Under the pieces are notes generated by a model. That model searched no databases. It was not told the origin of the DNA and worked only from the letters and a program-made list of their open reading frames with translations. DNA of 64,000 nucleotides from Actinomycetota bacterium (GTDB lineage Bacteria; Actinomycetota; Actinomycetes; Mycobacteriales; Micromonosporaceae): contig VAWN01000024.1 in assembly GCA_005885555.1 (NCBI GenBank), positions 124,001 through 188,000 of the forward strand, written 5' to 3'. Positions 9,398 through 56,550 of the stretch are shown here, piece after piece (the first letter of the stretch is position 1; each line of letters opens with the position of its first letter). The position numbers and the translations under genes are program-made.

Positions 9398-9467
9398 CGA
9401 TCTTGGACTTGTGGTGCCCGAATCGCGGAACAACGCGGCCTTTGTCGCCGACACAACTCCAAGATCG
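9398..9467. repeat. 70-bp inverted-repeat element
   Basis: The ends are 16-base arms, CGATCTTGGACTTGTG and CACAACTCCAAGATCG, which pair with one mismatch around a 38-base centre. The left half, including TTGTGGTGCCCGA, recurs at 28806. The CTTGGAC/TCCAAG arm ends are also shared with the 48-bp palindromes listed below. It is flanked by low-complexity G+C repeats up to the end of the LigD-pol gene. It may act as a terminator for that gene or be a mobile palindrome. Confidence 0.75.
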
Positions 9468-21311: not shown

Positions 21312-21359
21312 GATCTTGGACGTTCGTACCCCCGGCAGGGGGCACGCGCGTCCAAGATC
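21312..21359. repeat. 48-bp nested palindrome, copy 1
   Basis: Outer arms GATCTTGGACG and CGTCCAAGATC enclose an inner palindrome CCCCCGGCAGGGGG. It lies 20 bases beyond the glsB stop and could end that transcript. The same 48-base layout is found at 29091, 40550 and 56353. Confidence 0.85.
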
Positions 21360-28395: not shown

Positions 28396-28722
28396 TCAGC
28401 TCTCGCCGAGCGGCGTGTGCTCTCCGAACATCTCCGCGTGCAGCTTGCTCCGTGCCCAGGCGGCCGCGTCGGCAGCCGCCGCAACCGCCTGCCGGACCGA
28501 GCGGGACAGCTCCGTATTGGTGCGTCCGGTAAGGGCGCCGGTGATCGTCACGTCGCGGATCGTCCCGTCGGCGGTCACCAGTACCTCGACGAGCCCGTCC
28601 GGCGAGCTGACCGTCACCTCCACCCCGCGGACCGCCTTGTCGAACTCGGCGAGCAGACCGTCCAGACGCTGGTATCGCTCGACCGCCGCTTCGATGAACG
28701 CCTCGTCGATCTCGCGCGCCAT
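28396..28722 (-). CDS. YbaB/EbfC family DNA-binding protein
   Basis: A 108-residue protein with the YbaB strand pattern GVEVTVSSPDGLVEVLVTADG, then GTIRDVTI and a C-terminal helix that includes AVAAAADAAAWARSKLHAE. YbaB/EbfC proteins are small nucleoid-associated dimers. Paralogues next to EspC-like genes, as here, are frequent in actinomycetes and are distinct from the housekeeping copy beside dnaX/recR. The start of this trio faces the repeat-rich region before holB. Confidence 0.75.
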   Translation of the reverse strand: MAREIDEAFIEAAVERYQRLDGLLAEFDKAVRGVEVTVSSPDGLVEVLVTADGTIRDVTITGALTGRTNTELSRSVRQAVAAAADAAAWARSKLHAEMFGEHTPLGES

Positions 28723-28800
28723 ATGCCTTCGGCCCTCCCCGCTCGCCACCGTACGGGACCTCACCGTAGCGGCGTAAGCCCCTGTGGATAACCCCGCCCT

Positions 28801-29292
28801 CCCGCCGATCTTGGAATTGTGGTGCCCGACTCGCGGGGCAAAGGGGCTTTTGTCGTTGGCTCGAGTTTCGGAGTTTTGGATCGGCAGCTTCCCAGGTCGC
28901 CGGGCAAAGCGTGTGGATCTTGCGGGTTGCCTGGTCAGGGCGATGCCGCGAAAACCCGCCGGCCGCCGGCCCCCGGCCGCTGGCCGGCATCGGGCGTCGG
29001 AGCGCGTCGTGGAGAGCGCGACGAGGAGGCAGCCGCCCGGTTCAGATGGTTTGTGGGTTTCGCCGGGTGCTGGTTGCGCCTGGTCTCCGAGATCTTGGAC
29101 GCTTGCACCCCCTGCAGGGGGCACAAACGTCCAAGATTTCGCCACGGGAGCCCCGCCACACCCGCCACCACAGCGCAAACCGGCCAAACCGGGCCGCCCG
29201 CTCACCCCTTCGCCGCCGCCGGGACCGGGACCCACCCGCCAGCCGCAGAGAATCCGAAAGTCGAATCGTGGACACAACACCAAGATCGGCGG
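28801..29292. repeat. 490-bp non-coding stretch bounded by 21-bp inverted repeats
   Basis: The left end holds CCCGCCGATCTTGGAATTGTG and the right end CACAACACCAAGATCGGCGGG; one is the reverse complement of the other with two mismatches. The left 60 bases resemble the 70-bp element at 9398, and a 48-bp palindrome sits inside. No open frame with coding character lies within. It fills the gap between the YbaB-like gene and holB and looks like a miniature mobile or composite repeat. Confidence 0.6.
29091..29138. repeat. 48-bp nested palindrome, copy 2
   Basis: Arms GATCTTGGACG and CGTCCAAGATT enclose the inner perfect palindrome CCCCCTGCAGGGGG. It lies inside the inverted-repeat-bounded stretch downstream of holB, where it could also stop holB transcription. 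Confidence 0.85.
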
Positions 29293-29329
29293 GAGAGGCC
29301 GTGGGGCGGCGGGTGAGGCCGGGGGGTGG

Positions 29330-30577
29330 TCAGCCGCGCCAGAGGTTGACCATCATGGCTTCGACCGCGATACGCGGCTTGACGTTGAGCTCGATCGCGT
29401 CGCGGCAGGCGAGCACCGCGGACAGCCGGCGCAGCGTGCTCTCCGGCGTCCAGCGCTCGGCCGCGCGTACCGCCGTGTCGGTGGCGTCGACGTGTACCGG
29501 CGGCACCGGCGCGCCCATCGTGCGGATGAGCACGTCACGGTAGAAGCCGGCGAGGTCCACCAGGGCACGGTCGAGCGCGTCGCGCTGTGCCCGGGTCGCC
29601 CGGGACCGCTGCCGGCGCTCCAGGTCCTTCAACGCGGCCGAGGCGGCCCGCGCCACACCCGAGGCGCCCCGGCCGGTACCCCCGGCGCCCAGCGCGGTGG
29701 ACAGCTCGTCCTTCTCTTTGGCGTCCTGCTCGACGACCGACGCGGCGGCCTCGGCCTCGGCCGCCTCGATGAGCGCCGACGCGGCGTCGAAACACGCGCC
29801 GATCCCGGTCAGCTTGCGCGGCAATGCCAGTACCGCTTCCCGGCGCGCCCGGGCCTGCGGATCGCGCGCCAGCCGGCGGGCCCGCCCGACGTGCCCCTGC
29901 GCCGCGGCGGCCGCCCACAGCGCGTCCTCCCGAGCGATGCCGTCCCGCTCGACGAGTACCGACGCGACCGCCTCGGCGGACGGCTGGCGCAGGGTCACCA
30001 CCCGGCACCGGGAGCGGATCGTGACGGAGATGTCGTCCGGGTGCGTGGACGGGGTGCACAGCAGGAAGACCGTGCGCGGCGGCGGTTCCTCGATCGCCTT
30101 GAGAAGCGCGTTGCCGGCCGCCTCGGTGAGCCGGTCGGCATCCTCGACCAGCAGCACCTGCCACCGGCCCTGGATCGGCGCGCCCTGCGCCCGCAGCACC
30201 AGCGACCGCATCTCGCCGACCCCGACGGTGAGCCCCTCCGGTACCACGAACCGCACGTCGGCATGGGTACCGGCGAGGGTGGTGTGGCACGCGGGGCAGC
30301 TGCCGCAGCCCTGGTTGGCGCACTGCAGCGCGGCGGCGAAGGCGCGCGCGGCGACCGAGCGACCCGAGCCCGCCGGCCCGGTGAACAGCCAGGCATGCGT
30401 CATGCCGGCGCCGGCCGCCGGCGCCCCGCCGGCCCCGCCAGCCGCGGCCGCGCCGCCCCCGAAGGCCCCGCCAGCCGCGGCCGCGGCCGAGACGATCGCG
30501 GCCGCCGCAGCAGCCGCCCGGCGCAGCGTCGCCACCGCCTCGTCCTGCCCGACAAGGGCACGGAACACGTCACTCAC
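29330..30577 (-). CDS. holB: DNA polymerase III subunit delta prime
   Basis: A 415-residue clamp-loader subunit. It has HAWLFTGPAGSGRSVAARAF, a P-loop with Arg for the usual Lys, as delta prime subunits often show, the zinc cluster CANQGCGSCPACH, VLLVEDADRLTEAAGNALLKAIEEPP and a TIRSRCR sensor region. Between residues 19 and 58 there is a long Ala/Gly-rich insertion coded by near-repeats of CCCCGCCAGCCGCGGCCGC. The GTG start overlaps the stop of the MFS-Tmk gene (GTGA). Confidence 0.92.
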   Translation of the reverse strand: MSDVFRALVGQDEAVATLRRAAAAAAAIVSAAAAAGGAFGGGAAAAGGAGGAPAAGAGMTHAWLFTGPAGSGRSVAARAFAAALQCANQGCGSCPACHTTLAGTHADVRFVVPEGLTVGVGEMRSLVLRAQGAPIQGRWQVLLVEDADRLTEAAGNALLKAIEEPPPRTVFLLCTPSTHPDDISVTIRSRCRVVTLRQPSAEAVASVLVERDGIAREDALWAAAAAQGHVGRARRLARDPQARARREAVLALPRKLTGIGACFDAASALIEAAEAEAAASVVEQDAKEKDELSTALGAGGTGRGASGVARAASAALKDLERRQRSRATRAQRDALDRALVDLAGFYRDVLIRTMGAPVPPVHVDATDTAVRAAERWTPESTLRRLSAVLACRDAIELNVKPRIAVEAMMVNLWRG

Positions 30578-32838
30578 GAGGACCGGGTCTCCGCCGTCGA
30601 CAAGTTCTCCGACTCCTCGTCCTCGGGCGGCGGGTCCACGCTCGTGGCCACACCGGCGATCAGCGGCGCGGTCATCAGCTCAGGCGGCGCCACGTCGGCC
30701 GGAGCCGGCGCCGCCGTCTCAGCCGGCGCCGCCGTCTCAGCCGGCTCAGCCTCGACCGGGGCCTGCGAAGGCTCCGACGGTACCGGCGGGATCAGTGGCT
30801 CGACCCGGTCGACGATGAGCGTCGCGACCGACTCGACCGGCCGGCTCGCGTCCAGGACGAGGTACCGCTTCGGGTCCTTCGCGGCCCGGTCCAGGAACGC
30901 GTAGCGCACCTTCTCCGCGAACTGCACCGCCGCCGGGTCGGGCTCCGGCGGGCGGTGAGCGGCCCGGCGCAGCCCTTCGGCCGGGTCGAGATCCAGCAGT
31001 ACCACCAGATCCGGCTTGAGCCCGCCGGTGGCCCAGCCGGACAGCCAGGCGACCTCGTTGACCGGCAGCGTCCGGCCGGCCTCCAGATACGCCAGCGACG
31101 AGTCGACGTACCGCTCGCAGATGACCACCGCACCGCGCTCCAGCGCCGGTCGTACCACGGTGGCAACGTGATGCGCGCGGTCGGCCGCGTACAGCAGTGC
31201 CTCGGCCCGCGGTGCGGCCACCCCGAGCATCCCGCCGGTCAGTAGCAGGCTGCGGATCTGCGCGCCGAACTCGGTGGTACCCGGTTCCCGCGTCAGCACC
31301 ACCTCGTGCCCGTCGGCGCGCAGCAGGCCGGCGAGCCGGTTCGCGTGCGTCGACTTGCCGGTACCGTCGCCGCCCTCCAGCACGATGAACACCCCGGCCC
31401 GGGCGACCCGGGCGACCAGGCTCAGCGGGCGGCCGCGTACCGAGCCGACGATGTCGGCCAGCAGCGGTACCCCGTGCTTGTCGTCCATCTGCCGCAGTGC
31501 CGTGATGCCGGCGAACACGCCGAAGATGCCGGCCCCGAGCAGCAGCAGCCGGGTGGTCGAGATGGGCACGCCGAACACGTCGCGGGACGACCCGTACCCG
31601 ACGAGCACGCTGGACACCGACGTGGTCAGCAGCAGCGTGACCTGGGTACCGGCCTGGATGAAGGAGAACACCCGGCCGCGTACCTCGTCGCCGACCTCGG
31701 TACCGAGCAGCGTGGTGCCGGCCAGGAACGCCATCCCGGCCCCGACGCCGACGCCGAGCGCGAAGAACACCGCGATGACCAGGTGCCACGCGAAGGCGAG
31801 GATCGTCACCGACCCGGCCGCCATGATGATGGACAGCCCGAACCAGCGCCGCCGGGACAGCGCGCCGACCAGTCGCGGCCCCGCGACGATGCCGGCGCCC
31901 AGGCCGACGAAGATCACGGCGAACAGGATGTAGAAGGTGGAGTCGCCACCGCCGAGCGAGCGCGCGTAGAACTGCGCGGTGCCCACGACCACGCCGGCAC
32001 CGGCGAACGCGCCGAGGATGCCGAGCACCAGACCGCGTACCAGTGGCGTCTTGCCCACGTATGCCCAGCCGGCCAGGAACTCCTTCCACAGCGGCGGCTT
32101 CTTGGCCGGTGTGGTGACCCGCCGGCCGCTGATCTCCGGGATGCCGAAGAACACGACCAGCGCGGTGGTCAGGAAGGTCAGCGCGTCGAAGTACAGGCCG
32201 ACGTGGGTCGGGTCGAACGGACTCTTACCGGTGGTCGTGTGCAGCTCGTTGACGATCGTGGTCAACGCGGCCAGGAACAGGCCGGCCAGTACCGGGGTCA
32301 CGCCGTAGGTGGTGGCGAGGGTGAGCTGGTTTGCGCTCTCCAGCCGGGCGCGCGGCAGCAGGTTGGGTACCGCGGCGTCCTTCGCCGGCCCCCACGCCAT
32401 CTGCATCGCCTCGATGATGAACGTGGCGACCGCCGCCCAGCCGACGATGATCTTCGAGTTCGTGGTGATCAGCGTGATCGCCGGGATCGAGGCGAACATC
32501 ACGAACCGGACGAGGTCGCAGACGACCATCGTGTACCGCCGGTTCCACCGGTCGGCCACGACCCCGGCCACCGGCCCGAGGACCAGCGCCGGCAGCATCC
32601 GGACGGCGACCACCGAGCCGAACGCCACACCCTTGGCCGCTGACCCGGTCACCTGGGTGGACGCGAAGATCGCGCTGGCCAGCAGGCCGAGCCAGTCGCC
32701 CATCGAGGACAGCCCGAGGACCAGCCACAGCCGGCGGAATGGCCGGATCCGCCACAGCGCCTTCAGGCTGTCGAGCCCGGTCAGCTCGACGCCGGCCTGC
32801 GGCGGCGGCGGATCAGCCTTGCGCCGGTCGGACTTCAT
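30574..32838 (-). CDS. tmk: Fusion protein: MFS transporter plus thymidylate kinase
   Basis: A 754-residue two-domain protein. Residues 25-455 form a major facilitator of about 12 helices (for example RMLPALVLGPVAGVVADRWNRR, a motif A region). Residues 478-690 are a complete dTMP kinase with FIVLEGGDGTGKSTHANRL, the P-loop, and VICERYVDSSLAYLEAGR, the DR(Y/H)-type site. A 65-residue acidic Ala/Pro/Glu tail follows. This architecture is known beside holB and topA in actinomycetes. What is transported is unknown. TACAGT ends 8 bases before the ATG, suggesting a leaderless mRNA. Confidence 0.9.
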   Translation of the reverse strand: MKSDRRKADPPPPQAGVELTGLDSLKALWRIRPFRRLWLVLGLSSMGDWLGLLASAIFASTQVTGSAAKGVAFGSVVAVRMLPALVLGPVAGVVADRWNRRYTMVVCDLVRFVMFASIPAITLITTNSKIIVGWAAVATFIIEAMQMAWGPAKDAAVPNLLPRARLESANQLTLATTYGVTPVLAGLFLAALTTIVNELHTTTGKSPFDPTHVGLYFDALTFLTTALVVFFGIPEISGRRVTTPAKKPPLWKEFLAGWAYVGKTPLVRGLVLGILGAFAGAGVVVGTAQFYARSLGGGDSTFYILFAVIFVGLGAGIVAGPRLVGALSRRRWFGLSIIMAAGSVTILAFAWHLVIAVFFALGVGVGAGMAFLAGTTLLGTEVGDEVRGRVFSFIQAGTQVTLLLTTSVSSVLVGYGSSRDVFGVPISTTRLLLLGAGIFGVFAGITALRQMDDKHGVPLLADIVGSVRGRPLSLVARVARAGVFIVLEGGDGTGKSTHANRLAGLLRADGHEVVLTREPGTTEFGAQIRSLLLTGGMLGVAAPRAEALLYAADRAHHVATVVRPALERGAVVICERYVDSSLAYLEAGRTLPVNEVAWLSGWATGGLKPDLVVLLDLDPAEGLRRAAHRPPEPDPAAVQFAEKVRYAFLDRAAKDPKRYLVLDASRPVESVATLIVDRVEPLIPPVPSEPSQAPVEAEPAETAAPAETAAPAPADVAPPELMTAPLIAGVATSVDPPPEDEESENLSTAETRSS

Positions 32839-40549: not shown

Positions 40550-40597
40550 GATCTTGGACGCGCGTTCCCCCTGCAGGGGGGACCCGCGTCCAAGATT
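40550..40597. repeat. 48-bp nested palindrome, copy 3
   Basis: Arms GATCTTGGACGCGCG and CGCGTCCAAGATT surround CCCCCTGCAGGGGG. It lies between two co-directional genes, 23 bases before the methyltransferase start, so it may separate their transcripts. Confidence 0.85.
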
Positions 40598-56352: not shown

Positions 56353-56400
56353 GATCTTGGACGTCTGTCGCCCTTCCAGGGGGTGCAGGCGTCCAAGATC
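56353..56400. repeat. 48-bp nested palindrome, copy 4
   Basis: Outer arms GATCTTGGACG and CGTCCAAGATC are intact. The inner part, CGCCCTTCCAGGGGGTG, is the most diverged of the four. It lies 209 bases upstream of the ssd start and is followed by two direct copies of CAGCCGCCGCATGGCACC. Confidence 0.85.
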
Positions 56401-56436: not shown

Positions 56437-56479
56437 CAGCCGCGGCCGCGCACGGCCGGAAACCGGTGGCAGAAGAGGG

Positions 56480-56513
56480 GACGACCCCCGTCGGGGGGGT
56501 GACGGGGGTCGTC
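56480..56513. terminator. Perfect 13-bp hairpin
   Basis: GACGACCCCCGTC and GACGGGGGTCGTC pair fully around an 8-base G-rich loop. On the minus strand it would end any transcript coming from the small frame at 56551-56751, before the ssd promoter region. Confidence 0.65.
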
Positions 56514-56550
56514 GGCGGGTCCGGCTCCGGGGGGGTCGAGCCGAACCCAC

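Follow-up and report, generated by a model that had tools for sequence, protein, structure and literature searches.

In the window (the whole 64,000-nucleotide stretch of DNA that was analysed), the long spacer between holB and a YbaB/EbfC-family gene is very probably the result of a 68-bp palindrome, A, being hit by a non-autonomous miniature element, B, with a duplication of about 7 bp and with one end of B at 22-23 bp from a GATCTTGG half-site, counted from its GATC. The outer inverted repeats of the locus are the broken halves of this one palindromic repeat, not the ends of a mobile element. A repeat search of the window placed the outer inverted arms at 28799-28821 and 29273-29295 (23 nt, 91% complementary, separated by 451 nt) and those of an inner palindrome at 29088-29114 and 29115-29141 (27 nt each, 85%), in agreement with the inverted ends and the inner 48-bp palindrome described by an earlier sequence-only reading. 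That reading had also likened the left end to an element at 9398, and the two do belong to one family, with 50 long matches in the genome. Its bounds of 28801-29292 are real, but are refined here to A (28807-28860 and 29265-29287, with paired flanks) and the insert B (28861-29264). Its description of one palindrome element inserted into another came close, except that B has its own, different ends just inside, and the inner palindrome rides on B. It had proposed looking for a target duplication outside 28801/29292; the duplication lies inside, at 28853-28859 and 29266-29271. The rejoined halves of A align to the consensus of 42 A copies, an alignment meant as illustrative. The features of the locus are as follows.

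28807..28860, plus strand: host palindrome A, left part, interrupted; GATC and the end of B are 54 bp apart; kin to the genome's other long palindromes
28853..28859, no strand: target-site duplication, left copy TCGTTGG, read from the sequence; pairs with TCGTGG at 29266-29271
28861..29264, plus strand: miniature inverted-repeat element B, 404 bp; copies C187 (91%), C38 (86%) and partial ones
28861..28872, plus strand: left terminal inverted repeat of B, TCGAGTTTCGGA
28913..28937, plus strand: 25-nt motif GTGGATCTTGC-NNN-TTGCCTGGTCA, common to loci L330 and L335 of genome G135, 22/25 identical
29091..29138, no strand: internal 48-bp palindrome of family C (sister of A), carried by B; from the repeat search, with 110 short-palindrome matches in the genome
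29253..29264, minus strand: right terminal inverted repeat of B, reading TCGACTTTCGGA on this strand and, on the top strand, TCCGAAAGTCGA, ending at 29264
29265..29287, plus strand: host palindrome A, right part; its GATC half-site and the end of B are 23 bp apart, which makes this the proximal side
29266..29271, no strand: target-site duplication, right copy TCGTGG, one base shorter, read from the sequence

Both flanking genes are on the minus strand, holB at 29330-30577 (DNA_pol3_delta2, E 5e-37) and the YbaB/EbfC-family gene at 28396-28722 (E 1e-8). Named relatives of HolB suggest that the genome belongs to the Micromonosporaceae. The spacer between them is 607 bp, and 115 bp once 28801-29292 is removed. 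Among 42 relative loci tried, of which 29 came from one set of relatives and 13 from a second set of 80, 27 had both genes in order (25 distinct genomes) and 15 were dropped; in 27/27 of the scorable loci the spacer measures 43-213 bp, with a median of 104, and the exact GATCTTGG is absent from all 27 spacers. The possibility that the region is equally long and conserved in relatives, named beforehand as the outcome that would speak against an insertion, is thus contradicted by every scorable locus of the 42. Pfam returned no families in the four frames overlapping B, and Rfam at its gathering threshold returned nothing at the locus and, in the window as a whole, a tRNA and a 6C RNA only. Nearby, a single frame of 754 aa (30574-32838 of the window) combines, as judged by eye, a thymidylate kinase-like C-terminus with a membrane-transporter-like N-terminus.

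MITEs are short, non-coding elements with terminal inverted repeats, a target duplication and multiple copies. B has terminal inverted repeats, with the end TCGASTTTCGGA present at both termini of the window, C187 and C126 copies. In the draft assembly of the own genome (6.7 Mb, 197 contigs), the exact 12-bp end has 10 matches, every one of them in B copies, distributed over 7 elements. The further copies that the sequence-only reading had proposed to look for were thus found, with C187 at 91% and C38 at 86% identity, plus partial ones. Target-site duplication is also seen, as 7 bp in C187 (TACCCCG on both sides) and C38 (TGTCCCC) and as 8 bp in G135, a genome of another genus, where L332 (GCGACGCC) and L335 (GAGCACCC) are perfect, L329 and L331 match at 7/8 and L330 at 6/7, so that all five elements tested there show one. 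The flanking repeats of C187 and C38 point to a duplication of about 7 bp; that of C126 is imperfect (5/7 by eye), as is that of the window, where TCGTTGG against TCGTGG reflects one base lost or gained. B is short, has no transposase gene and occurs in several copies. Given the inverted ends and the 7-8-bp duplication, the transposase that would act on B is probably of the cut-and-paste kind. A search by end patterns found no longer partner with B ends in the own draft genome of 197 contigs, nor, again by end patterns only, in 300 genomes of the family or in the G135 loci read. Bacterial MITEs, the subject of the review PMC10969869, resemble B in being short and lacking a recognised coding sequence, and in having terminal inverted repeats, a target duplication and several copies; B differs from them in its palindrome target and in its internal palindrome of the target family.

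All seven elements with exact ends adjoin palindrome halves on at least one side, a count that is independent of the palindrome-centred stretches that were fetched. An eighth copy (C13), whose end has one mismatch, has a GATCATGG half-site at 22 bp. The internal C palindrome occupies the corresponding place in C187, C38, C59 and C149, and half of it is present in C179. It is also present in C126, a shorter variant of B (236 bp). The relic at C102 lacks the palindrome and adjoining bases as well and is therefore not a clean empty site. At the start of C38 (G000:C38:1-17, the start of L003/L281), the contig opens with the apparent end of a second B, followed by TGTCCCC and then B; two B copies appear to be adjacent there, and the assembly breaks at this point.

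These copies also bear on whether the 490-bp stretch is one mobile unit with long compound ends that include GATCTTGG, the solo palindromes being internally deleted derivatives. Such a unit would account for GATCTTGG lying at a near-fixed distance outside one end in most scorable copies. However, B sits in an A palindrome in the window and in C palindromes in its C187 (91%) and C38 (86%) copies, the distance on the second side, 32-35 or 54 bp, follows palindrome length, as insertion predicts, and the duplications fall between the element and the palindrome halves. A single compound unit is therefore highly improbable.

The palindromes that serve as targets form a larger population. The own genome has about 160 A/C palindromes, 50 of the long A type and 110 of the short C type, and reversed-pattern controls gave 0; one of the 50 A-type matches is a short palindrome beside a stray half-site. 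The pattern GATCTTGGA-N30..60-TCCAAGATC occurs 130 times, compared with 0 for the reversed control, so the palindromes are not due to chance. They were found in 11/61 genomes tested, all within this bacterial family, which supplied 37 of the 61, and are absent from the one genome of the same genus tested (G001, 77% complete). A GATCTTGG palindrome family is thereby described from 11/37 genomes tested of this bacterial family. Whereas the termini are constant in the searched pattern (GATCTTGGA), the interiors vary between genomes, with lengths of 48, 56 and 68 bp; in G004, G009, G011, G023, G044 and G048, the interior of the GATCTTGGA palindrome and its length (48 or 56 bp) are particular to each genome. 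These genome-specific interiors suggest homogenisation within genomes. Elsewhere in the window, an A palindrome lies at 9399-9466 and C palindromes at 21312-21359, 40550-40597 and 56353-56400, the last about 75 bp downstream of the 6C RNA (56476-56550, minus strand).

High-copy extragenic palindromes with species-specific variants are also known in the form of REP sequences and REPINs, which are associated with RAYT transposases and resemble A and C in these respects, as described in the parts of PMC3733652 and PMC3116915 used here. In the same part of PMC3733652, REPs are small (20-40 bp) and have a GTAG or CGTC tag at one end; A and C, at 68 and 48 bp and with the conserved end GATCTTGG, differ from them in both size and tag. 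Unlike the REP/RAYT system, A and C are found in a genome with no match to the RAYT-type transposase domain Y1_Tnp (PF01797). Among the 11 palindrome-bearing genomes, PF01797 matches were seen in G009 only.

An RNA-level role for the palindromes, as bidirectional terminators, would make B a passenger, carried passively where the sequence behind genes tolerates insertions. The 49 A copies placed relative to genes lie mostly behind them (29 convergent, 18 tandem, 1 divergent and 1 overlapping a predicted gene), compared with 10 convergent, 43 tandem and 11 divergent among the window's own gene pairs, and strong hairpins are predicted. The 62 C copies are distributed as 33 tandem, 13 convergent, 8 divergent, 6 overlapping and 2 at edges; all of these counts depend on a home-made gene caller and on stretches chosen around palindromes. 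Against this role, pairing at the variable stem positions of C is close to chance expectation: in 60 copies no compensatory excess was seen (e.g., 26 against 29.1 expected, 24 against 19.7 expected), and the two halves of C vary about independently. Passivity, moreover, leaves the spacing between element and half-site unexplained, and this alternative is very unlikely. Around 49 A and 61 C copies there is no clear excess of direct repeats that would mark a target duplication (best z 2.8, over many boundaries). Together, the independent halves, the lack of a clear duplication and the lack of a RAYT-type transposase make the palindromes look like paired DNA half-sites.

The spacing between element and half-site is found in most scorable copies across three genera. 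Distances run from the G of the nearest GATCTTGG, matched with at most one mismatch, to the base at which the element end starts. Two main classes, set after the junctions had been viewed by eye, were distinguished: 20-23 bp, and either 32-35 bp (48-bp palindromes) or 54 bp (68-bp palindromes). With a 7-bp duplication and an edge at 22, the far side is expected at 48+7-22=33 or 68+7-22=53. The nine exact-end termini scored in the own genome lie at 22, 23, 33, 33, 34, 34, 54 and 54 bp, with one lacking a half-site; an exact end of C38, too near the contig end, was left out of the 9. The terminus without a scan match is the left one of C187, where AATCCTGG is visible by eye at 22 with two mismatches. 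C59, C149, C179 and C38 are scorable on the distal side only.

In G135, a half-site lies 22 bp from 7 of the 18 exact-end termini, 21 bp from another 5 and distally, at 32-35 bp, from 3, and the remaining 3 have none. A wider set, chosen by element similarity alone and overlapping the 18, comprises 35 distinct termini from 23/30 loci, of which 19 lie at 20-23, 6 at 31-36, 1 at 9 and 9 have none, the scan having covered 60 bp and allowed up to one mismatch; the other 7/30 loci have no recognisable end and were left unscored. Counted by locus, this wider set has a proximal half-site at 20-23 bp in 18/23, a distal one only in 2, and none at any end that could be recognised in 3 (L367, L375 and L388). 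In G016, a genome of a third genus, the spacing is 20; an end that carries one mismatch gives 22. At random positions in the same stretches the rates are 0.3% (own) and 0.6% (G135), and even these rates are raised by the choice of stretches around these repeats.

The position of the insertion also weighs on a structure-directed alternative, in which B enters the loop of extruded cruciforms without reading GATCTTGG. In its favour, near-palindromes make up most of the targets, and insertion into 48-bp palindromes falls close to the dyad. In the 68-bp A palindromes of the window and C126, however, the insertion is off-centre and yet 22-23 bp from one GATC, which argues that the dyad itself is not the landmark. 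Similarly, the degenerate half-sites GATCATGG (L386) and GATCTTGC (L361) keep the 22-bp spacing. When the 50-bp flanks of eight elements were scored as inverted repeats, own C187 and G135 L332 beat shuffles, L331 did so marginally and the other five did not; against random sites of its own locus, only 1/8 (L332) beat them all. Since the 50-bp cut is too short for A targets, reliance is placed on the half-site scan. Cruciform-directed entry is accordingly quite unlikely.

Under the preferred reading, either a transposase acting in trans or a tethering host protein would read the GATCTTGG half-site and direct strand transfer to a fixed distance of about two helical turns, with cuts falling between 15 and 22 bp from where the GATCTTGG octamer begins. 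A hypothetical host protein that sits on GATCTTGG palindromes and recruits a transposase itself without sequence preference would fit the large number of palindromes, their presence in 11/61 genomes tested and the near-fixed spacing; this division of labour is a credible but rather doubtful alternative to direct recognition by the transposase. If the ruler holds, an 8-bp tag with a fixed offset would provide site-specific transposition into expendable extragenic repeats, and one could then test how a transposon spares its host by aiming at landing sites of a kind that it also carries.

Insertion sequences that target palindromes are established, with five IS families covered in the portion of PMC1525189 used here, and REP-targeting has been described for IS1397, ISKpn1, IS621, ISPpu9, ISPpu10, ISPa11, ISRm22 and ISPsy8 (Tobes and Pareja, 2006, PMC1525189, same portion). 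Like B, these elements are mobile and strongly prefer repeated extragenic palindromes; in that portion they bear transposases and are proteobacterial, and the main text of PMC1525189 contains no word beginning with 'mite'. In contrast, B is gene-free and actinobacterial, uses a half-site ruler and carries its own kind of target. Searches confined to the open-licence literature turned up no report of the GATCTTGG palindromes, nor of a miniature element that combines this ruler with an internal target. Palindrome-targeting insertion sequences are known, and a miniature element that combines the ruler with its own kind of target inside appears to be new.

Two further genera, represented by G135 and G016, have elements that share the ends of B and enclose a GATCTTGG palindrome. 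Across 300 family genomes, 36 have a match to the end pattern, with 9 in G135, 8 in the own genome and 0-2 in the others. Half-site and end occur together in 4/354 family genomes (own, G135, G016 and G002); the G002 match has no palindrome and was taken as chance, and single matches in G020 and G044 gave no clear palindrome-nested element. With one G135 element as query, 91 matching pieces were obtained from 40 scored of 237 first-look candidates. Five two-ended G135 elements measure 291-397 bp. The internal palindrome is present in the 3 own and 6 foreign elements examined. In the foreign six, five from G135 and one from G016, it begins 86-103 bp from one end; in window B it ends about 126 bp from the right end. 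No right end was found for the G016 element, which lies at C98. Once palindromes and ends had been masked or trimmed, comparing the 3 own with the 6 foreign elements (36 comparisons) returned the 25-nt motif twice (window B against L330 and L335), along with an 18-nt match of C126 to L330. Relative to the palindrome, the motif has the opposite orientation in window B and in L330/L335, and this shared stretch of sequence is treated as a possible lead.

The internal palindrome of B amounts to two more GATCTTGG half-sites, so each insertion would add new landing sites. One clear case of nesting is found at G135 L378, where the match to the outer copy covers its bases 1 to 115, the new copy starts at that point, and the end of the inner copy is 22 bp from the internal GATC of the outer one. 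This nested copy suggests that the internal half-sites are usable as landing sites. L364, L365, L369, L372 and L389 also adjoin sequence like the element's palindrome and its neighbourhood; because the palindrome core is shared with a second G135 repeat (L383, L390), only L378 is counted as clear nesting. A jump of this gene-free element of about 400 bases, with its inner palindrome, may bring new landing sites along. It is possible, though still tentative, that palindrome-homing miniature transposons are a wider feature of the Micromonosporaceae, with integration measured from the 8-bp GATCTTGG, a half-site pair as a built-in landing pad, targets regenerated and copies nesting. If so, element and palindrome would co-evolve in each genome, and carrying the palindrome may bring a benefit.

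A recognisable end is present in 23/30 G135 loci read, and some of the others are a second repeat with the common core. This second repeat (L383:1400-1750 and L390:1380-1740) is about 270-290 bp long, has inverted ends of about 26 bp, CCTCACCCTCCGCGGTCGCCCAGCTC, as seen by eye, and carries the same internal palindrome core as the TCGACTTTCGGA element.
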